This document shows, piece by piece, positions 27,321 through 63,098 of a DNA stretch of 64,000 bases. The first letter of the stretch is position 1; each line of letters begins with the position of its first letter. The translations under genes were made by a program, and so were the position numbers. Source of the DNA: Thalassospira sp. (GTDB taxonomy: Bacteria > Pseudomonadota > Alphaproteobacteria > Rhodospirillales > Thalassospiraceae); NCBI RefSeq assembly GCF_030690045.1, contig NZ_JAUYHK010000021.1, positions 186,001 to 250,000 on the forward strand, given 5' to 3'. The notes under the pieces were generated by a model. That model did no database searches and was not told the DNA's origin. It worked only from the letters and a program-made list of their open reading frames with translations.

Positions 27321-28985
27321 ATGTCATTTTTTAAGAAAATAAAGATATCGCAAAAAATATTTGGCGGATTTGGTGTGGTCCTCCTTTTGCTGGGAATATT
27401 GTCGATTCTCTCGGTTATGTCACTTTACCGGGCAGAAGATAATTTTGTGAAATATCGGGAACTGGCAGAAATATCGAACCAGTCTTCGTATGTACTGTCA
27501 AACCTTCAGGATGCACGTCTTGCCGCTCTTGCGTATCAGAATAATCCCTCAAATGAGGTAAAAGAACTGGCCGTTGGGAGATTGTCCGCAGCATCCGAGA
27601 TGAACAAAAAACTTCTCGAGATGGTTGTTGATCCTCGTACGATTGAAATCGTGCGTCAGACGGAGGGGGACATAGCAAGCTTTTCCGATGCTTTTGGGAA
27701 ACTGATCGCAAGCAATAACCCGTCCGAAAGACAGGCGATTATTGACAATCAGCTTGACGTGGTTGGCCCGCGAATTGCGGAAGAGATCGAAGAAGTCAAG
27801 ATTTCCAGCAAGAAAGAGCAAGATGTACTTGCTATGAAAACTGTTGAAGAAATTGAATTTGAGGTCGTTGTCGCCGAAATAATTGCCGTTGTCGCCGTTG
27901 TTCTTGGCATCGTCATTGCTTGGTTCATTGGGGTTGGAATTTCGCGCCCAATTGTTGCGATCACGTCGACGATGCGCATACTTGCCAATGGCGACAAATC
28001 GGTCGTCATCCCGGGACAGGATCACAGCGATGAGGTCGGCGAAATGGCCAAGGCTGTTCTGGTGTTCAAGGAAAACATGATCAAGGCCGAAGAGCTGGCC
28101 GCGCAAGAGGCCGAAAACCAGAAACGCCGCGAGGAACGTGCAAAGCTGATTGAGAAACTGACCAATGATTTTGATGGTGATGTTTCGATGGTTCTGAAAA
28201 CCGTGGCCTCGGCCGCGACTGAAATGCAGGCAACTGCAACTTCGATGACGGCAACCGCCGAGGAAACCAGCCGTCAGTCGGCAGTTGTCGCCGCCGCTGC
28301 GGAACAGGCATCGACCAATGTTCAGACTGTTGCCAGCGCGTCGGAAGAACTGAGTGCCTCTATTTCTGAAATCAGCCAGCAGGTCAGTCAGTCGGCACAG
28401 GTTGCCAACAAGGCGGTAGCCGAGGCGGATCGTACCAATGCTCAGGTGCGCGGCCTTGCCGAAGCGGCTCAAAAAATTGGCGATGTGGTGGGGCTGATCA
28501 GCGACATTGCCGCCCAGACCAACCTTTTGGCCCTGAATGCAACGATTGAGGCGGCCCGAGCAGGCGAATCAGGCAAGGGATTTGCCGTGGTCGCGGCAGA
28601 GGTCAAAAACCTGGCCAATGCCACGTCAAAGGCCACAGATGAAATTACCGCCCAGATCAGCGCGATCCAGACTGAAACCGATGGGGCAGTTATCGCCATA
28701 GATTCCATCGGCAAAACCATTGCCGAAATCAGCGAAATTGCAGCAACCATCGCCAGTGCGGTAGAGCAGCAAGGGGCCGCAACCGAGGAAATCAACCGCA
28801 ATGTTCAGGAGGCCTCCGCCGGGACAACAGAGGTGACATCGAATATTCACGGGGTGAATGAAGCAGCGTCTTCAACCGGGGCCGCCGCAGAACAGGTTTT
28901 GGCCGCATCGGGCGAATTGTCCGAACAGGCCGAAGATTTACGCCAGAAAGTCGAAACCTTCCTCTCGGCGGTCAAAGCCGCCTGA
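27321..28985 (+). CDS. Methyl-accepting chemotaxis protein (second of tandem pair)
   Basis: Chemoreceptor of 554 residues from the ATG at 27321 (GGAG upstream); the track start 28 codons earlier lies in AT-rich leader. Its layout is identical to the neighbour: TM1 'IFGGFGVVLLLLGILSILSVM', a helical sensor domain, TM2 'VVVAEIIAVVAVVLGIVIAWFIG', HAMP, and signalling tip '[27 protein letters not shown]'. The sensor half is clearly diverged and AT-richer than the first MCP, while the last 145 bp are nearly identical in DNA. Different ligands with the same downstream partners are likely. Confidence 0.95.
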   Translation: MSFFKKIKISQKIFGGFGVVLLLLGILSILSVMSLYRAEDNFVKYRELAEISNQSSYVLSNLQDARLAALAYQNNPSNEVKELAVGRLSAASEMNKKLLEMVVDPRTIEIVRQTEGDIASFSDAFGKLIASNNPSERQAIIDNQLDVVGPRIAEEIEEVKISSKKEQDVLAMKTVEEIEFEVVVAEIIAVVAVVLGIVIAWFIGVGISRPIVAITSTMRILANGDKSVVIPGQDHSDEVGEMAKAVLVFKENMIKAEELAAQEAENQKRREERAKLIEKLTNDFDGDVSMVLKTVASAATEMQATATSMTATAEETSRQSAVVAAAAEQASTNVQTVASASEELSASISEISQQVSQSAQVANKAVAEADRTNAQVRGLAEAAQKIGDVVGLISDIAAQTNLLALNATIEAARAGESGKGFAVVAAEVKNLANATSKATDEITAQISAIQTETDGAVIAIDSIGKTIAEISEIAATIASAVEQQGAATEEINRNVQEASAGTTEVTSNIHGVNEAASSTGAAAEQVLAASGELSEQAEDLRQKVETFLSAVKAA

Positions 28986-56941: not shown

Positions 56942-57268
56942 ATGAGTGATCAGGGCAATCAGGGTGACGGTCTGCCAACGACAGGGATCGTCACCAAGAC
57001 GCGACCAAAGACCAAAAAACCGGCGATGTACAAGGTGTTGTTGCTCAATGATGACTACACACCGATGGAATTTGTCGTCCATGTGCTGGAACGGTTTTTC
57101 AGCAAGGGCCATGAAGAGGCAACCGAAATCATGTTGCAGGTTCATCGCAAGGGGGTCGGTATTTGCGGTGTCTTTACCTACGAAATTGCCGAGACCAAAG
57201 TTAATCAGGTGATGGATCTTGCTCGTCAGAACCAGCATCCGTTGCAGTGCACGATTGAGAAGGAGTAA
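56942..57268 (+). CDS. clpS: ATP-dependent Clp protease adaptor ClpS
   Basis: ClpS delivers N-degron substrates to ClpAP. The 108-residue protein has a flexible N-terminus, then '[25 protein letters not shown]' with the N-end-residue pocket, and '[37 protein letters not shown]'. Length is usual for the family. Its stop is 3 bp before clpA, the classical clpS-clpA operon. Confidence 0.97.
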
Positions 57269-57271
57269 CCC

Positions 57272-59590
57272 ATGCTCTCACGTAATCTGGAAGAAAGCCT
57301 GCATCGTGCGCTTGGATATGCGTCTGAGCGGCGTCACGAATATGCGACGCTGGAACATTTGCTGTTGTCGCTGACCGAAGATCAGGACGCGATATCGGTC
57401 CTGCGCGCCTGTCGGGTGGATGTGGATCGTCTGCGGGGCGAATTGCTGGAATTCACCGATAGCGAATTGTCCGGCCTGATCAGTGCGCGGCTGGTTGATC
57501 CCAAACCGACCGCCGGGTTCCAGCGGGTTATTCAGCGTGCCGCCATTCATGTGCAATCGTCGGGCCGCGAAGAAGTGACCGGTGCCAATGTTCTGGTCGC
57601 GCTGTTTTCCGAACGGGAATCGCATGCGGTTTATTATCTGCAATTACAGGACATGACGCGCCTTGATGCGGTCAATTATATTTCGCATGGTATCGCAAAA
57701 TCGCCGGAACTGAACGAACGCCGCATTCCGCGGGGGGCTGACGAAGACATCGCCCCGGCAGGGACCAGGGATGCCGAGGATGCGTCTGCCCCCGATGATG
57801 GCGAAGCCCTGAAGGCTTATTGCGTCAATTTGAATGTCAAGGCGCAGGCGGGCAAGATTGACCCGCTGATCGGCCGTCAAAGCGAGATCGAACGCACCAT
57901 TCAGGTCCTGTGCCGCCGCACCAAGAACAATCCGCTTTATGTCGGGGATCCGGGGGTGGGTAAAACCGCCATTGCCGAAGGATTGGCAAAGCGGATTGTC
58001 GAGGGTGATGTGCCTGAAGTTCTGGCCAATGCCACGATCTTTGCGCTGGATATGGGATCGCTTCTGGCCGGGACCCGCTATCGCGGGGATTTTGAAGAGC
58101 GTCTCAAAGCGGTGGTCAAGGAACTGGAAGCGCATGACGGGGCGGTCTTGTTTATTGACGAAATCCATACCGTGATCGGGGCCGGGGCAACGTCGGGCGG
58201 GGCGATGGATGCCTCAAACCTTCTGAAACCTGCCCTTGCCAGCGGCTCGTTGCGCTGCATCGGCTCGACCACCTACAAGGAATTCCGTGGGCATTTTGAA
58301 AAGGACCGCGCACTGGTGCGCCGGTTCCAGAAAATCGATGTCGATGAACCGTCACTGGAAGACACCATCAAGATACTCAAGGGGCTGAAACCCTATTACG
58401 AGGAACATCATCATGTGCGTTACACCAATGAGGCAATCCGCTCGGCGGTTGAACTGGCATCGCGCTATATCAGCGACCGCAAACGGCCTGATAATGCGAT
58501 TGACGTGATTGACGAGGTGGGTGCGTCGCGGATGCTTGTCGCACCCGGCAAGCGCAAACGCACCATCAGCAAACGCGATGTCGAGGAAATTGTCGCCAAA
58601 ATCGCCCGCATTCCGGCAAAATCGGTATCGTCCGATGATCGCAAGGTTCTGCAAACGTTGGAGCGGGACCTTAAAACCGTGGTGTTTGGTCAGGACAAGG
58701 CCATTGAGGCACTGGCAAGTGCAATCAAACTGGCGCGGGCAGGGTTGCGCGAACCGGAAAAGCCGATTGGCAGTTATTTGTTTTCCGGCCCGACCGGGGT
58801 GGGCAAAACCGAAGTCACCAAACAGCTTGCCCATGTCATGGGGATCGAATTTATCCGCTTTGACATGTCGGAATATATGGAACGCCACAGCGTCTCACGC
58901 CTGATCGGGGCACCACCCGGTTATGTCGGGTTTGATCAGGGCGGATTGTTGACCGATGCAGTGGATCAGCATCCCCATGCGGTGGTGTTGCTGGACGAAA
59001 TCGAAAAGGCGCATCCGGACCTGTTCAATATTCTGCTGCAGGTGATGGATCACGGCAAACTGACCGATAATAACGGCAAGAATGTCGATTTCCGCAATAT
59101 CGTTTTGGTGATGACGACCAATGCCGGGGCGTCGGACATGGCTAAACCCGCCATCGGCTTTATGCGCGAACAACGCTTTGGCGAGGATGACGAGGCGATC
59201 AAGCGCACCTTCAGTCCGGAATTCCGCAACCGTCTGGATGCGGTTATTCCGTTCGACAATCTGAAACCCGATGTCGTCAAGATGGTGGTTGATAAATTCA
59301 TCCTGCAACTTGAAGCGCAGCTTGCGGATCGCAATGTGTCGATCGAACTGACCGAGGCCGCGCGGACATGGCTTGCCGACCGGGGATATGACCCGGCCTT
59401 CGGGGCGCGTCCGCTGGGCCGTGTCATTCAGGAATATGTTAAAAAACCACTGGCCGAAGAATTGCTGTTTGGCAAACTTGAAAAAGGCGGGGCTGTTCTG
59501 GTTGATATTGCCGATGGCAAGGTTGTTTTCCATTATTCCGGCATGCCGGGGCAGGTGGCGGAAACCCGCGATCCTGAAATGGTGGAATAA
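57272..59590 (+). CDS. clpA: ATP-dependent Clp protease ATP-binding subunit ClpA
   Basis: Hexameric unfoldase that feeds ClpP, 772 residues. An N-domain with two Clp repeats (about 1-145) is followed by an acidic linker. AAA-1 has Walker A '[18 protein letters not shown]' and Walker B '[12 protein letters not shown]'. AAA-2 has Walker A '[15 protein letters not shown]' and Walker B '[16 protein letters not shown]'. The ClpP-docking loop is '[10 protein letters not shown]', with an IGF in place of IGL. No ClpB-type middle coiled coil is present, which separates it from ClpB/ClpC. Confidence 0.97.
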
Positions 59591-59663
59591 AGCGTGTACC
59601 TATCCTGAATTGCGGGGGCTGTGCCCGGCGCTTGCTATTGGCTGCAAGATAGTATCTTGATGG

Positions 59664-59698
59664 TTGTCCGGATTGCTTTATGATCCGGACAATCTTTT
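59664..59698 (+). terminator. Intrinsic terminator of clpS-clpA
   Basis: TTGTCCGGAT / ATCCGGACAA stem with a 9 nt loop and a short TCTTTT tail, 73 bp after clpA and before the next gene. Confidence 0.7.
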
Positions 59699-59720
59699 CA
59701 TGAGGCGGTTTTAGCGGTTA

Positions 59721-60275
59721 ATGGATTCATCAGCCCGACGACAAAATCTGAAGCAGGTAGAGCATTTTCTCTCGCAGCTTGAAAAACGTGGACGTATTTT
59801 GGTAGCCCTTGCCGCCCGGCTGGAGCGCGAGGCCGATACGCTTGACATTACCGCCTACCGTCCGTTTCGCGAAGAAGTTGATAATTTCAAGGCGCTGTCG
59901 CTGATCCTGACCGAACGGCTGGCGAAAATGGAAAGCCATTCCCGCAAGGACGAACTGGAAATCAATTTCCACCGTTTGCAGGTTCTGATGTTGCGGGTGG
60001 TGATTAAATCCAGCCTGAAATTCTTTTTTGTCATGAGCGCCAAATCCGTGCTGCCGCTGGGTTCCAAGGAACTTTTCCAAAGCGAATTGCGCACCCTTTA
60101 CGAAGCAGAACGGATGTTGTCCGACCCGCGTTATGAAAGCGAACTGGACGAAAGTGCTCGCGATGATCTGGAGCTTGCCAAGGAAATCCTTGAGGAAATT
60201 ATTCAGCATGCACCGACCTTGCTGAATTTTGGCGACCGCAAACCCAAACGGAAAAAAGCCCGTAAGGCCTCCTGA
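59721..60275 (+). CDS. Uncharacterised helical protein downstream of clpA
   Basis: Protein of 184 residues, almost entirely predicted helix and highly charged, without a signal peptide. The middle 'VVIKSSLKFFFVMSAKSVLPLGSKELF' is the only hydrophobic stretch and is too polar for a clear membrane helix. The Lys/Arg-rich tail 'RKPKRKKARKAS' may bind nucleic acid. Family not recognised. A terminator separates it from clpA, so it probably has its own promoter. Confidence 0.75.
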   Translation: MDSSARRQNLKQVEHFLSQLEKRGRILVALAARLEREADTLDITAYRPFREEVDNFKALSLILTERLAKMESHSRKDELEINFHRLQVLMLRVVIKSSLKFFFVMSAKSVLPLGSKELFQSELRTLYEAERMLSDPRYESELDESARDDLELAKEILEEIIQHAPTLLNFGDRKPKRKKARKAS

Positions 60276-60314
60276 TTTCGCATTTTGCAAAATGTGAATT
60301 CGCAAAATGCGAAA
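60276..60314. terminator. Stem-loop after the helical protein gene
   Basis: Thirteen-base perfect stem TTTCGCATTTTGC / GCAAAATGCGAAA, starting at the stop codon. No U tract follows on the plus strand, so it is a moderate terminator or a 3' stabilising hairpin. The AAAATGTGAATT loop and the following GCAAAACGCAATT repeat parts of the same motif. Confidence 0.6.
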
Positions 60315-60421
60315 AAATAATTGCAAAACGCAATTAAATTGGACCTCAGATGGTTGTTTTGTGTCTGGTATGGTAAAAAAACTCCGGAAATTCCCTCTTT
60401 AAGACCCTTGCACAAAACTGG

Positions 60422-60443
60422 CACACCCTATGCATAGGGTGTG
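60422..60443. repeat. Perfect 22 bp palindrome
   Basis: CACACCCTATG joined directly to its reverse complement, with no spacer. It lies at the possible promoter of the candidate small RNA and could be an operator. Confidence 0.7.
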
Positions 60444-60559
60444 TTGGACAGTTGTTCTTTGCAGGGATGCACGCGAGTGTGTCTGGAACAATGTAATCTT
60501 CTGCAGTTTGCTCGTGTCCCAACCAAAACTCGGCGGCGGATTTTTTCCGCCGCTTTTTT
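60443..60559 (+). ncRNA. Candidate small RNA (about 115 nt)
   Basis: A strong intrinsic terminator at 60533-60559 has no coding gene directly upstream on its strand. The segment before it can fold: GTTGGACA (60443-60450) pairs with TGTCCCAAC (60515-60523) with one bulge, and TTGCAG (60459-60464) pairs with CTGCAG (60501-60506). A weak TTGCAC-N17-TGCATA lies just upstream. No known RNA family was recognised; the layout is loosely 6S-like, but that is not claimed. Confidence 0.35.
60533..60559 (+). terminator. Orphan intrinsic terminator
   Basis: GCGGCGGA / TCCGCCGC stem, five-T loop, six-T tail. It is 258 bp past the nearest upstream stop codon, beyond that gene's own hairpin, so it probably ends a separate non-coding transcript. 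Confidence 0.85.
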
Positions 60560-60785
60560 CTTGGGCAAAATTCCCCCTTTCCTATCCTTTTGTGCATTTT
60601 TATCAATCCGGATGGTGTTTTGCGTATTGAAAGCGCAACGCAGCATCCTCATGTGTGCTGCATGGGTATTTTCCATATTTATAATATTCGTTAACTATAC
60701 TTATGTTTAGAATCCACAGGTTTCGGGACGGGCTTTTTATTCCTGTATTGCGCGTTCTGATGATGCACAGGATGGGAGAGAAACG

Positions 60786-61406
60786 ATGAAAATCATCCAC
60801 GCAATAGTGGGTCGCGCCGTGCTGGTGGGCGGGCTGGTCGCCCTGCCACTGGCAAATGCCTGGAGCAAGGCAGAACTACCGGGGGCACCCGCATCCCTGA
60901 TTGATCAAGCCTTTATTGATGATGCTCGCGACTGGCTATCCAACCCGGTTGTGGAATTGTCGGTCCAGTCGCAAAACAAATTGCGCAAAGATATGACCCA
61001 GGCCGATATCGATGCGGCTGACCAGCAATGGCTGGCCGAACGGACGGCAGATGATCAGCCCCTTGTGGCGGCGACGCTGACCAATCCGCTTTCCAGTTAT
61101 CTGACGCAAATTCAGGCGCGGTCAGGCGGGGTGCTGGCCGAAGTTTTCGTTATGGATGCCAATGGACTGAATGTCGGGCAAAGCTCGATTACATCCGATT
61201 TCTGGCAGGGTGACGAAGCCAAATTCCAGAAAACCTATCCTGTCGGTATCGATGCCATTTTCATTGATGAAGCGGAATACAACGAGGACCACGATGCCTG
61301 GTTGTCGCAATTGAATATGACCTTGGCCGATGCGAATGGCGCTGCGATTGGCGCGGTAACCATTGAGATCAATCTCAATGAGTTGGCCCGGCGTCGCGGT
61401 TTATAG
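60786..61406 (+). CDS. Stand-alone periplasmic PDC/Cache-like sensor protein
   Basis: Protein of 206 residues with a signal peptide (about 1-28, 'AVLVGGLVALPLANAWSKA'). The mature part is one domain: a long N-terminal helix, then 'LSSYLTQIQARSGGVLAEVFVMDANGLNVGQSSITSDFWQGDEAKFQKTY' and 'WLSQLNMTLADANGAAIGAVTIEINLNEL', which resemble a PDC/Cache sensor. It has no transmembrane or output domain. The stop is 9 bp before an MCP start, with AGGAGAG between, so it is probably a soluble ligand-binding partner of that receptor. Confidence 0.82.
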   Translation: MKIIHAIVGRAVLVGGLVALPLANAWSKAELPGAPASLIDQAFIDDARDWLSNPVVELSVQSQNKLRKDMTQADIDAADQQWLAERTADDQPLVAATLTNPLSSYLTQIQARSGGVLAEVFVMDANGLNVGQSSITSDFWQGDEAKFQKTYPVGIDAIFIDEAEYNEDHDAWLSQLNMTLADANGAAIGAVTIEINLNELARRRGL

Positions 61407-61415
61407 GAGAGTGGG

Positions 61416-63098
61416 ATGAATTTTTTCAAAAATATGAGCATTCCGGCCAAGCTGACATCGTGTTTTGCGGTGATGGTGGCCGTGATTTTGATGGTGGCCG
61501 TGGCGGGTGTTTTTTCGATCAGCCAGGTCAAAAAGGCCGGTGATCTTCGCAATCAAATGACCGATCTTGAAGATGCCTATCGTGATCTTGACAGGTCCTA
61601 TCTGATCGCGCGTCAGGAACTTGTGTATTTTCTGACCACCGGCGACCGCCGGGGGCTTGATGCCCATCAGGCGGCGTTGGGGGATATTGATCAGCAGGCC
61701 GATGTTCTGAAATCCTTTGCCGGATTTGACGCCGAAATTTCCACCCTTGTCGATGAGATGGATTCGGCTATTGACCGCTGGGAAGAAATCGCGGTCGAGC
61801 AGACACAATTGATGCGTCATTACCTGACGGTCAATCATGCCCGCGCCATTGAGGCATCGGGTGAACCCCGCGAACTGGCCGATAGCGTCAGCCGGATCGC
61901 AACCCAACTTGCCAGCCATATCGATGAAATTCTGACTGAATCGCAGCAAAGCGAACAACAGGCGATGACCCTGTTTGAACTGACGCTGGGTATTGGCGTT
62001 TTGGTTCTGATTGTCATGGCGGTTCTGTTTGGCGGTACTCTGTCGCGGATGATCGCAACACCGATCCGCAAAATGACCGAGGCGATGGGCAGTCTGGCAT
62101 CGGGCAATCTGGATGTCGAAATTCTGGAAATGCAGCGCAATGACGAAGTGGGCGCAATGGCGAAATCCTTGGAGGTTTTCCGCGAAAATGCCCGTGAACG
62201 CGCCCGGATGACCGAACAGGAACGTCTTGAGGCCGAACGGCAGACCCAGCGCAACAAGCGCATGGGCGAACTGACCGCCGGGTTTGACCGCAAGATTCAG
62301 GAAGTTCTGGTGGCGGTCAGCGGTGCCTTGGGCGAAGTACGTCAGGCATCGGAAAAACTGTCGGGCCATTCCGAACAGGCCAATCAGGATGCCCGTAATG
62401 TGGCCGAACAGGCGCATGAATCCTCGGCCAATATCGAAACCGTGGCATCGGCAACCGCCGAATTGTCATCGTCGATTGCCGAAATTTCATCGCAGATCGC
62501 CCGTGTGACCCATGTCACCCAGCAGGCGGTGGCCGATACCGAACGCACCAATGCCCGTGTGGAAATGTTGAACGAGGCCGCGCAAAGTGTCGGCGAGGTT
62601 GTCAGCCTGATCAGCGACATTGCCGATCAGACCAATCTTCTGGCCCTTAATGCCACGATTGAATCGGCGCGGGCCGGTGAGGCGGGCAAGGGTTTTGCTG
62701 TGGTGGCGAACGAGGTCAAAAATCTGGCATCGCAAACCGTCAAGGCAACCGAACAGATCACGGTCAAAATCACCGAAATGCAGTCGGAAACCGGGGCGGC
62801 GGCCGATGCGGTACGCGGATTTGCCCAAACGATTCAGCAGATTGATGAACTGATGGCCGCCGTGGCCAGTGCGGTCGAAGAACAGGGTGCCGCGACCGAG
62901 GAAATATCGCGCAGTGTCGAAGGGGCCGCGAATGGCAATATTGCGATTAGCAATGCCGTTAAAAACGTGGCGCAATCGACCACCGAAAGCGGCAGCCTGT
63001 CACATGGTCAGCTTGATTGTGTCGGGCGTCTTGCCGCCGCCAATGACGAATTGCGCACCCATGTTGATGGTTTTTTAAGCGACGTCAAAAGCGTTTAG
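61416..63098 (+). CDS. Methyl-accepting chemotaxis protein with separate sensor partner
   Basis: Chemoreceptor of 560 residues. TM1 is at about 12-34 ('[21 protein letters not shown]'). A helical periplasmic domain covers about 35-190, and TM2 is at about 192-214 ('[19 protein letters not shown]'). HAMP ('[24 protein letters not shown]') and the MA signalling region follow, with tip '[35 protein letters not shown]'. There is no C-terminal pentapeptide. It is unlike the tandem pair at 25-29 kb. The upstream secreted PDC-like protein is likely to interact with its periplasmic bundle. The stop overlaps the convergent FemAB-like gene by 4 bp. Confidence 0.94.

Follow-up and report, generated by a model that had tools for sequence, protein, structure and literature searches.

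Does the stretch between two conserved Thalassospira genes, which ends at a terminator of no apparent gene, encode an RNA of its own, and what would control it? A preliminary description of the window (the whole 64,000-nt stretch of DNA that was analysed) proposed a possible novel small RNA (sRNA) at this orphan terminator. That proposal is supported, with transcription inferred: lack of conservation in relatives would have refuted it, this check was run, and the element proved to be conserved. We consider it almost certain that the segment listed in Table 1 is a genuine small regulatory RNA common to every Thalassospira genome examined, its transcription being inferred and not shown.

Table 1. 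Features of the sRNA locus and related genes (window positions unless another contig is given)
Feature	Position	Strand	Basis or remark
clpA, upstream syntenic gene	57272–59590	+	name from sequence (ClpA-type ATPase)
184-aa ORF, no known family, flanking gene	59721–60275	+	syntenic in 29/29
LuxO-type UAS site 1, TCGCATTTTGCAA	60278–60290		about −170 to −168 from +1
Weaker half-register copy overlapping UAS site 1	60285–60297		motif match
LuxO-type UAS site 2, TCGCAAAATGCGA	60300–60312		about −147 to −146 from +1
LuxO-type UAS site 3, TTGCAAAACGCAA	60321–60333		about −125 from +1
Sigma-54 promoter, CTGGCACACCCTATGCA	60418–60434	+	GG 60420–60421, GC 60432–60433
22-bp perfect palindrome	60422–60443		in the preliminary description; imperfect in the other 28 genomes
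Small RNA gene, about 115 nt (very likely)	60446–60560	+	+1 inferred from −12 element, at 60445/60446
5' domain	60446–60519	+	closed by invariant GGACA/UGUCC (60446–60450 with 60515–60519)
Variable hairpin (60465–60471 with 60478–60484)	60465–60484	+	compensatory changes across genus
Invariant segment GCAGUUUGCUCGUGUCCCAACC, proposed target-pairing region	60503–60524	+	identical in all aligned genomes
Intrinsic terminator, stem 60532–60554 and T run	60532–60559	+	terminator prediction, compensatory changes
206-aa ORF, probable sensor-like exported protein, no Pfam match	60786–61406	+	flanking, syntenic in 29/29
Methyl-accepting chemotaxis protein (MCP; HAMP, MCPsignal)	61416–63098	+	syntenic in 29/29
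LuxO-family sigma-54 activator, 536 aa	C8:114860–116470 of same genome	−	PDB LuxO and NCBIfam LuxO matches

Conservation of the RNA gene

The RNA is present as one copy, at the same position, in 29/29 Thalassospira genomes, all of which keep the order clpA, 184-aa ORF, sRNA, 206-aa ORF, and MCP. The first of these genes we take to be clpA from its ClpA-type ATPase sequence together with established knowledge. A 201-base query around the terminator recovered the element in 28/28 other Thalassospira genomes; outside the genus, its only match in any other family was a terminator fragment. The aligned loci show a near-invariant RNA with the 5' start GGACAGTTGTTCT and a 3' end at the T run. Averaged over genome pairs, identity reaches 0.905 in the RNA, compared with 0.77 in the promoter and 0.72 across the block of enhancer (UAS) sites; the spacer (0.42) and the downstream DNA (0.38) are far less conserved.

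A covariance model built from the sRNA scored 115–145 bits in all 29 Thalassospira genomes, and among 317 genomes of the order its top score outside the genus was only 33 bits. An 18-mer scan of one genome for each of 84,980 species returned only Thalassospira-annotated loci and about 7 chance matches. The earlier statement that no known RNA family fits also held, with no Rfam match at the gathering threshold; searches at gathering and permissive thresholds gave only subthreshold matches, the best being suhB via the terminator. A novel sRNA ending at an orphan terminator is thus very likely, being supported by conservation in 29/29 genomes, compensatory hairpin changes, a conserved promoter of its own, and the absence of an Rfam family. 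A Thalassospira small-RNA dataset of 18–35-nt reads has been published (PMC6413936, PRJNA505357).

Structure of the RNA and its terminator

The terminator consists of a 9-bp stem followed by TTTTTTC and is the best plus-strand terminator within 58000–63000. Its description as canonical, at 60533–60559, held with the stem placed as in Table 1, as did the claim that no ORF leads into it; the overlapping mechanical ORFs traverse the terminator or run antisense, and none is annotatable. The fold of 60400–60565 is far more stable than that of shuffled sequences (z = −4.7), and the z-score for the RNA with its terminator is −3.4. The 5' domain alone, without the terminator, is not unusually stable in this genome (z = −0.9 versus shuffles), and the status of the sRNA as a gene therefore rests on conservation and promoter, not on folding energy.

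Two nested pairings had been proposed for the 5' domain. The outer one, 60443–60450 with 60515–60523, held as the GGACA/UGUCC stem, which shows no variation in any genome; its first three bases, 60443–60445, probably lie upstream of +1. The inner one, 60459–60464 with 60501–60506 (TTGCAG/CTGCAG), held only in part: it is present in the minimum-energy fold here, but a competing helix, 60451–60457 with 60486–60492 (GUUGUUC/GAACAAC), is preferred in the RNA of another genome. In the alignment, 99.7% of cells are paired for the competing helix versus 99.2% for the proposed pairing. The data do not resolve the two inner foldings, and on these model predictions we lean only slightly toward GUUGUUC/GAACAAC. 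Compensatory changes in the variable hairpin and the terminator amount to 3 pairs and 8 cells, values matched by 4/500 and 0/500 shuffles.

Promoter and enhancer sites

Upstream of the RNA lies a conserved box, [CT]TGGCA[CT]-N5-NTGC[AT], in which GG-N10-GC is found exactly 26 nt before the first invariant G of the RNA in 29/29 genomes. This layout is that of a sigma-54 −24/−12 promoter. In the window alone, a match to the pattern could well arise by chance (2 matches versus 0.57 expected), and the promoter call is convincing because of its position and conservation, not the rarity of the pattern. The second match in the window, TTGGCATCGTCATTGCT, is located at 27904–27920.

The preliminary description had placed a weak promoter here, overlapped by a 22-bp perfect palindrome. 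The first claim partly held, in that a promoter is there, but of the sigma-54 and not the sigma-70 class. The palindrome is present, but is perfect and overlaps the promoter in just 1/29 genomes; we rejected it as an operator on this ground and regard it as probably incidental. The preliminary description was silent on the promoter class, and it named neither the enhancer sites of LuxO type nor the activator of the LuxO family described later.

The published LuxO UAS motif, TTGCAWWWTGCAA (PMC10162802), agrees with the Vibrio cholerae LuxO ChIP-seq sites at qrr1–4 (PMC10328515). Nearly every Thalassospira genome carries two to four copies of it at −170 to −112, spaced by two helical turns. With at most one mismatch allowed, 78 UAS-like sites were found versus 1.6 expected, and a control stretch gave 1. 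The sites of this genome have one to two mismatches to the consensus. A degenerate form of the motif occurs at 11 places in the whole genome, and the sRNA locus is the only one of them with a cluster and with a sigma-54 promoter.

A strict two-site pattern matched 19/317 genomes of the order, 16 of them Thalassospira (16/29 of the genus), and the Thalassospira matches lie at the sRNA locus wherever coordinates were compared. As a positive control, the same pattern in a Vibrio genome led to a UAS pair, a sigma-54 promoter (TTGGCACGCATCGTGCT), and then Qrr (Rfam, 108.5 bits). Only 1/8 Vibrio genomes was matched, which means that the pattern is strict.

Outside Thalassospira, UAS clusters were found in three other genomes of the order; in two of them, G112 and G135, the pattern used detected no sigma-54 promoter. 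In G040, another member of the Rhodospirillales, a gene for an RpoH-like sigma factor is preceded by a UAS pair and a sigma-54 promoter (L103, G040:C22, minus strand) and is predicted to be a different LuxO-family output. In another alphaproteobacterium, a UAS pair precedes a gene for an NAD-dependent epimerase-like protein, with a LuxO-family gene about 5 kb away (L263, G593:C65:17745); here, too, the pattern used detected no sigma-54 promoter.

The clpS–clpA pair (window 56942–59590) lies directly 5' of the sRNA, and a V. cholerae LuxO ChIP peak is also located between cspD and clpS (PMC10328515). This shared proximity to clpS is likely a coincidence.

The LuxO-family activator

The genome encodes a dozen sigma-54 activators, one of which is LuxO-like (Table 1). 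It scores 490 bits against PDB LuxO (next activator, 305) and 638 bits against NCBIfam LuxO, NF041946 (next 381, NtrC); the latter score is below the curated cut-off of 800 bits, the Vibrio controls being at 848–866. In a phylogenetic tree, Vibrio LuxO and the activator form one clade (support 100/99) that excludes nine other activators encoded in the same genome; the branching order within it is not resolved, and the outgroups sit on long branches. The protein comprises a receiver domain, an AAA+ domain with GAFTGA, and HTH_8, with an insertion before the HTH. Alanine scanning of V. cholerae LuxO has identified 11 critical residues (PMC11407668), 8 of which are kept in the C-terminal HTH region, GSIPRAAEALGVSPSTLYRKKQ, and 9 in most of the genus. 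The LuxO-type recognition helix SPST[IL]YRK is unique to this protein among the activator C termini read from the genome.

The activator gene adjoins STAS and SypE-like genes, not luxU; all 11 genomes inspected have it in divergent orientation to a gene for a STAS protein and one for a HATPase–receiver–SpoIIE protein. Together these domains correspond to those of SypA (STAS) and SypE, whose layout is HATPase–receiver–SpoIIE. SypE acts via the STAS protein SypA (PMC3843225). Based on the below-cut-off score, the insertion before the HTH, and these neighbors, the activator could possibly be closer in role to SypG.

At a strict cut-off of 1e-170, LuxO-family activators were found in 26/29 Thalassospira genomes; G006, G011, and G026 gave no match at this cut-off. 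In the order, 92/317 genomes have LuxO-family activators that pass the strict cut-off (570–690 bits, with LuxO as the best model), mostly without detectable UAS clusters. G009 has a second LuxO-family activator gene (G009:C2:254800–256194) besides the syntenic one.

Predicted pairing and targets

The leaders of luxO were chosen for a pairing test because Qrr represses luxO in Vibrio (PMC3262071). A conserved GGGAYRYGA about 13–18 nt before the luxO start codon is predicted to pair with UCGUGUCCC, with G–U pairs allowed. The mean duplex energy was −18.3 versus −14.1 for shuffles (16 genomes), and z averaged −1.8 over 26 genomes, compared with −0.9 to +0.5 when six other genes were tried. The luxO leader of this genome gave −23.0 kcal/mol, equal to the top value among 98 sampled leaders of the same genome. 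This genome uses a different site, and in the G020/G027 clade there is little or no pairing. Most changes at the variable positions are transitions, a frequent kind of substitution in any case. The middle segment of the RNA (36–58) paired with luxO leaders no better than shuffles, and pairing with the leaders of the STAS, SypE-like, MCP, 206-aa, and 184-aa genes and of icd was weak or none. Pairing with the luxO leader, with feedback as in Vibrio, is a possibility that the model predictions merely suggest, the pairing itself being untested. The genome contains an hfq gene.

In seven Thalassospira genomes, a stretch adjacent to icd, directly before a strong terminator, is antisense to the invariant segment (TTGGGACACGTGCAAACT or TTGGGACACGCAGCAAACT; loci L154–L158 and L161 in G027, G026, G023, G020, G011, and G010, and L164 in G016). 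By analogy with QrrX in vibrios, it may be an RNA sponge or a 3'-UTR target. G020 also has, about 80 nt ahead of an outer-membrane-protein-like ORF, a 20-nt stretch perfectly antisense to the sRNA (L160:1458–1477; G020:C2:1489458), which might represent a species-specific target.

Proposed mechanism and rival explanations

Conservation, synteny, the promoter and enhancer sites, the uniqueness of the cluster, and the LuxO-family gene in 26/29 genomes at the cut-off used are shown. The reading that we favor as likely is that of a trans-acting sRNA activated by a LuxO-family protein and sigma-54, a functional counterpart of Qrr, in which expression, activator binding, Hfq dependence, pairing, targets, and signal are inferred. 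The phosphorylated LuxO-like protein would bind the three UAS sites and remodel sigma-54 polymerase at the promoter, thereby switching on the 115-nt RNA. The RNA would pair in trans through its invariant segment, probably with Hfq, and the one predicted target, luxO mRNA just upstream of the start codon, would create negative feedback. Such a circuit would be a phosphorelay output acting through an RNA; we do not claim quorum sensing.

The alternative closest to this reading is a sigma-54-dependent sRNA driven by another enhancer-binding protein, for example of the SypG or NtrC type, the LuxO link being no more than a resemblance of DNA sites. In its favor, the genome has a dozen such activators, Vibrio fischeri SypG and LuxO use the same UAS at qrr1 (PMC10162802), and the LuxO-like gene stands in a SypA/SypE setting. 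However, the recognition helix is found in only this activator among the C termini read, and the observed sites match the LuxO motif rather than the SypG motif that has been published, TTCTCANNNTGMDWN; we consider this alternative unlikely. The RNA could also be the 5' leader or attenuator of the downstream 206-aa and MCP genes, or the 3' UTR of the 184-aa gene, as would fit the synteny with both neighbors in 29/29 genomes and the lack of a predicted terminator between 60275 and 60446. This is very unlikely, since the sRNA has its own conserved sigma-54 promoter and UAS cluster, and since its strong terminator is followed by more than 200 poorly conserved bases (identity 0.38) before the next gene.

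Two further explanations are all but excluded. Membership, if distant, in the alpha-r8/suhB/MmgR family is suggested by the best Rfam match, suhB/mmgR, over 60502–60569 (24.6 bits, E = 0.0064). This score is below the gathering score of 41, and the alignment is mostly terminator; 13/14 unrelated control genomes also match at the same loose threshold, and a proper suhB copy (49.9 bits) is located elsewhere, at C5:158291. A short peptide gene or dual-function RNA might be read from a 13-codon TTG-start frame inside the RNA and from the alignment, in which length changes in the variable hairpin are mostly multiples of three. The TTG start, however, lies only 6 nt past the inferred +1 and has no ribosome-binding site, one locus (L028) shifts the frame by 2, and the changes preserve pairing.

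The circuit of LuxO and Qrr is a textbook sRNA circuit that is regarded as peculiar to vibrios. Returning to the proposed LuxO-family-activated sRNA, a bolder reading, which we hold to be as likely wrong as right, is that a LuxO–sRNA circuit is not an invention of the Vibrionaceae. In this reading, an alphaproteobacterial genus would have the same wiring (LuxO-type activator, sigma-54, a single RNA, and luxO feedback) around a completely unrelated RNA, by convergence or by turnover of the RNA with the activator and enhancer sites retained, and with input on SypA/SypE-like partner switching. In this marine alphaproteobacterium, the promoter and enhancer letters are nearly those of vibrios, the RNA behind them is unrelated, and the system allows one to ask whether wiring outlives the RNA that it drives. 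LuxO-family activators, common as they are in the order, have no known output, and the sRNA is their first concrete predicted target. The prediction is testable in culturable Thalassospira.

Comparison with known systems

In the open-access literature searched, no paper unites Thalassospira, quorum sensing, and LuxO, and LuxO in alphaproteobacteria has annotation-level mentions only; subscription papers could have been missed. Like alpha-r8/suhB/MmgR (RF00519), the present RNA is an alphaproteobacterial sRNA with a GC-rich terminator hairpin; unlike that family, of which the genome has a separate genuine copy, its match is subthreshold and driven by the terminator. The activator resembles the LuxO/SypG group in its receiver, AAA+ domain with GAFTGA, and HTH_8; LuxO is its best match by far, and the recognition helix is nearly identical. 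It differs from LuxO in falling under the curated cut-off, in the insertion before the HTH, and in its STAS plus HATPase–REC–SpoIIE context, which is sypA/sypE-like rather than luxU.

The Qrr model (RF00378) gave no match at E ≤ 10 in the window region and none when three further Thalassospira loci were searched at E ≤ 1, and sequence similarity to Qrr reached a score of 16, which was attained by 65/300 shuffles. The sRNA, found only in Thalassospira, an alphaproteobacterium, thus differs from Vibrionaceae Qrr in having no sequence or covariance-model match to it; it is single copy, is not beside luxO, and is linked to no known autoinducer receptor, LuxU, or LuxR/HapR target. It likely works like Qrr without being a Qrr homologue, its function being inferred. 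Like Qrr, it is an sRNA of about 110 nt with a single sigma-54 promoter and an intrinsic terminator; the Qrr promoter has nearly the same letters (TTGGCACGCATC[C/G]TGCT), and two or more TTGCAWWWTGCAA sites lie 100–170 nt upstream in both. As for Qrr (PMC3262071), the proposed activator belongs to the LuxO family, and pairing of the sRNA with luxO mRNA, here only predicted, would complete the likeness.
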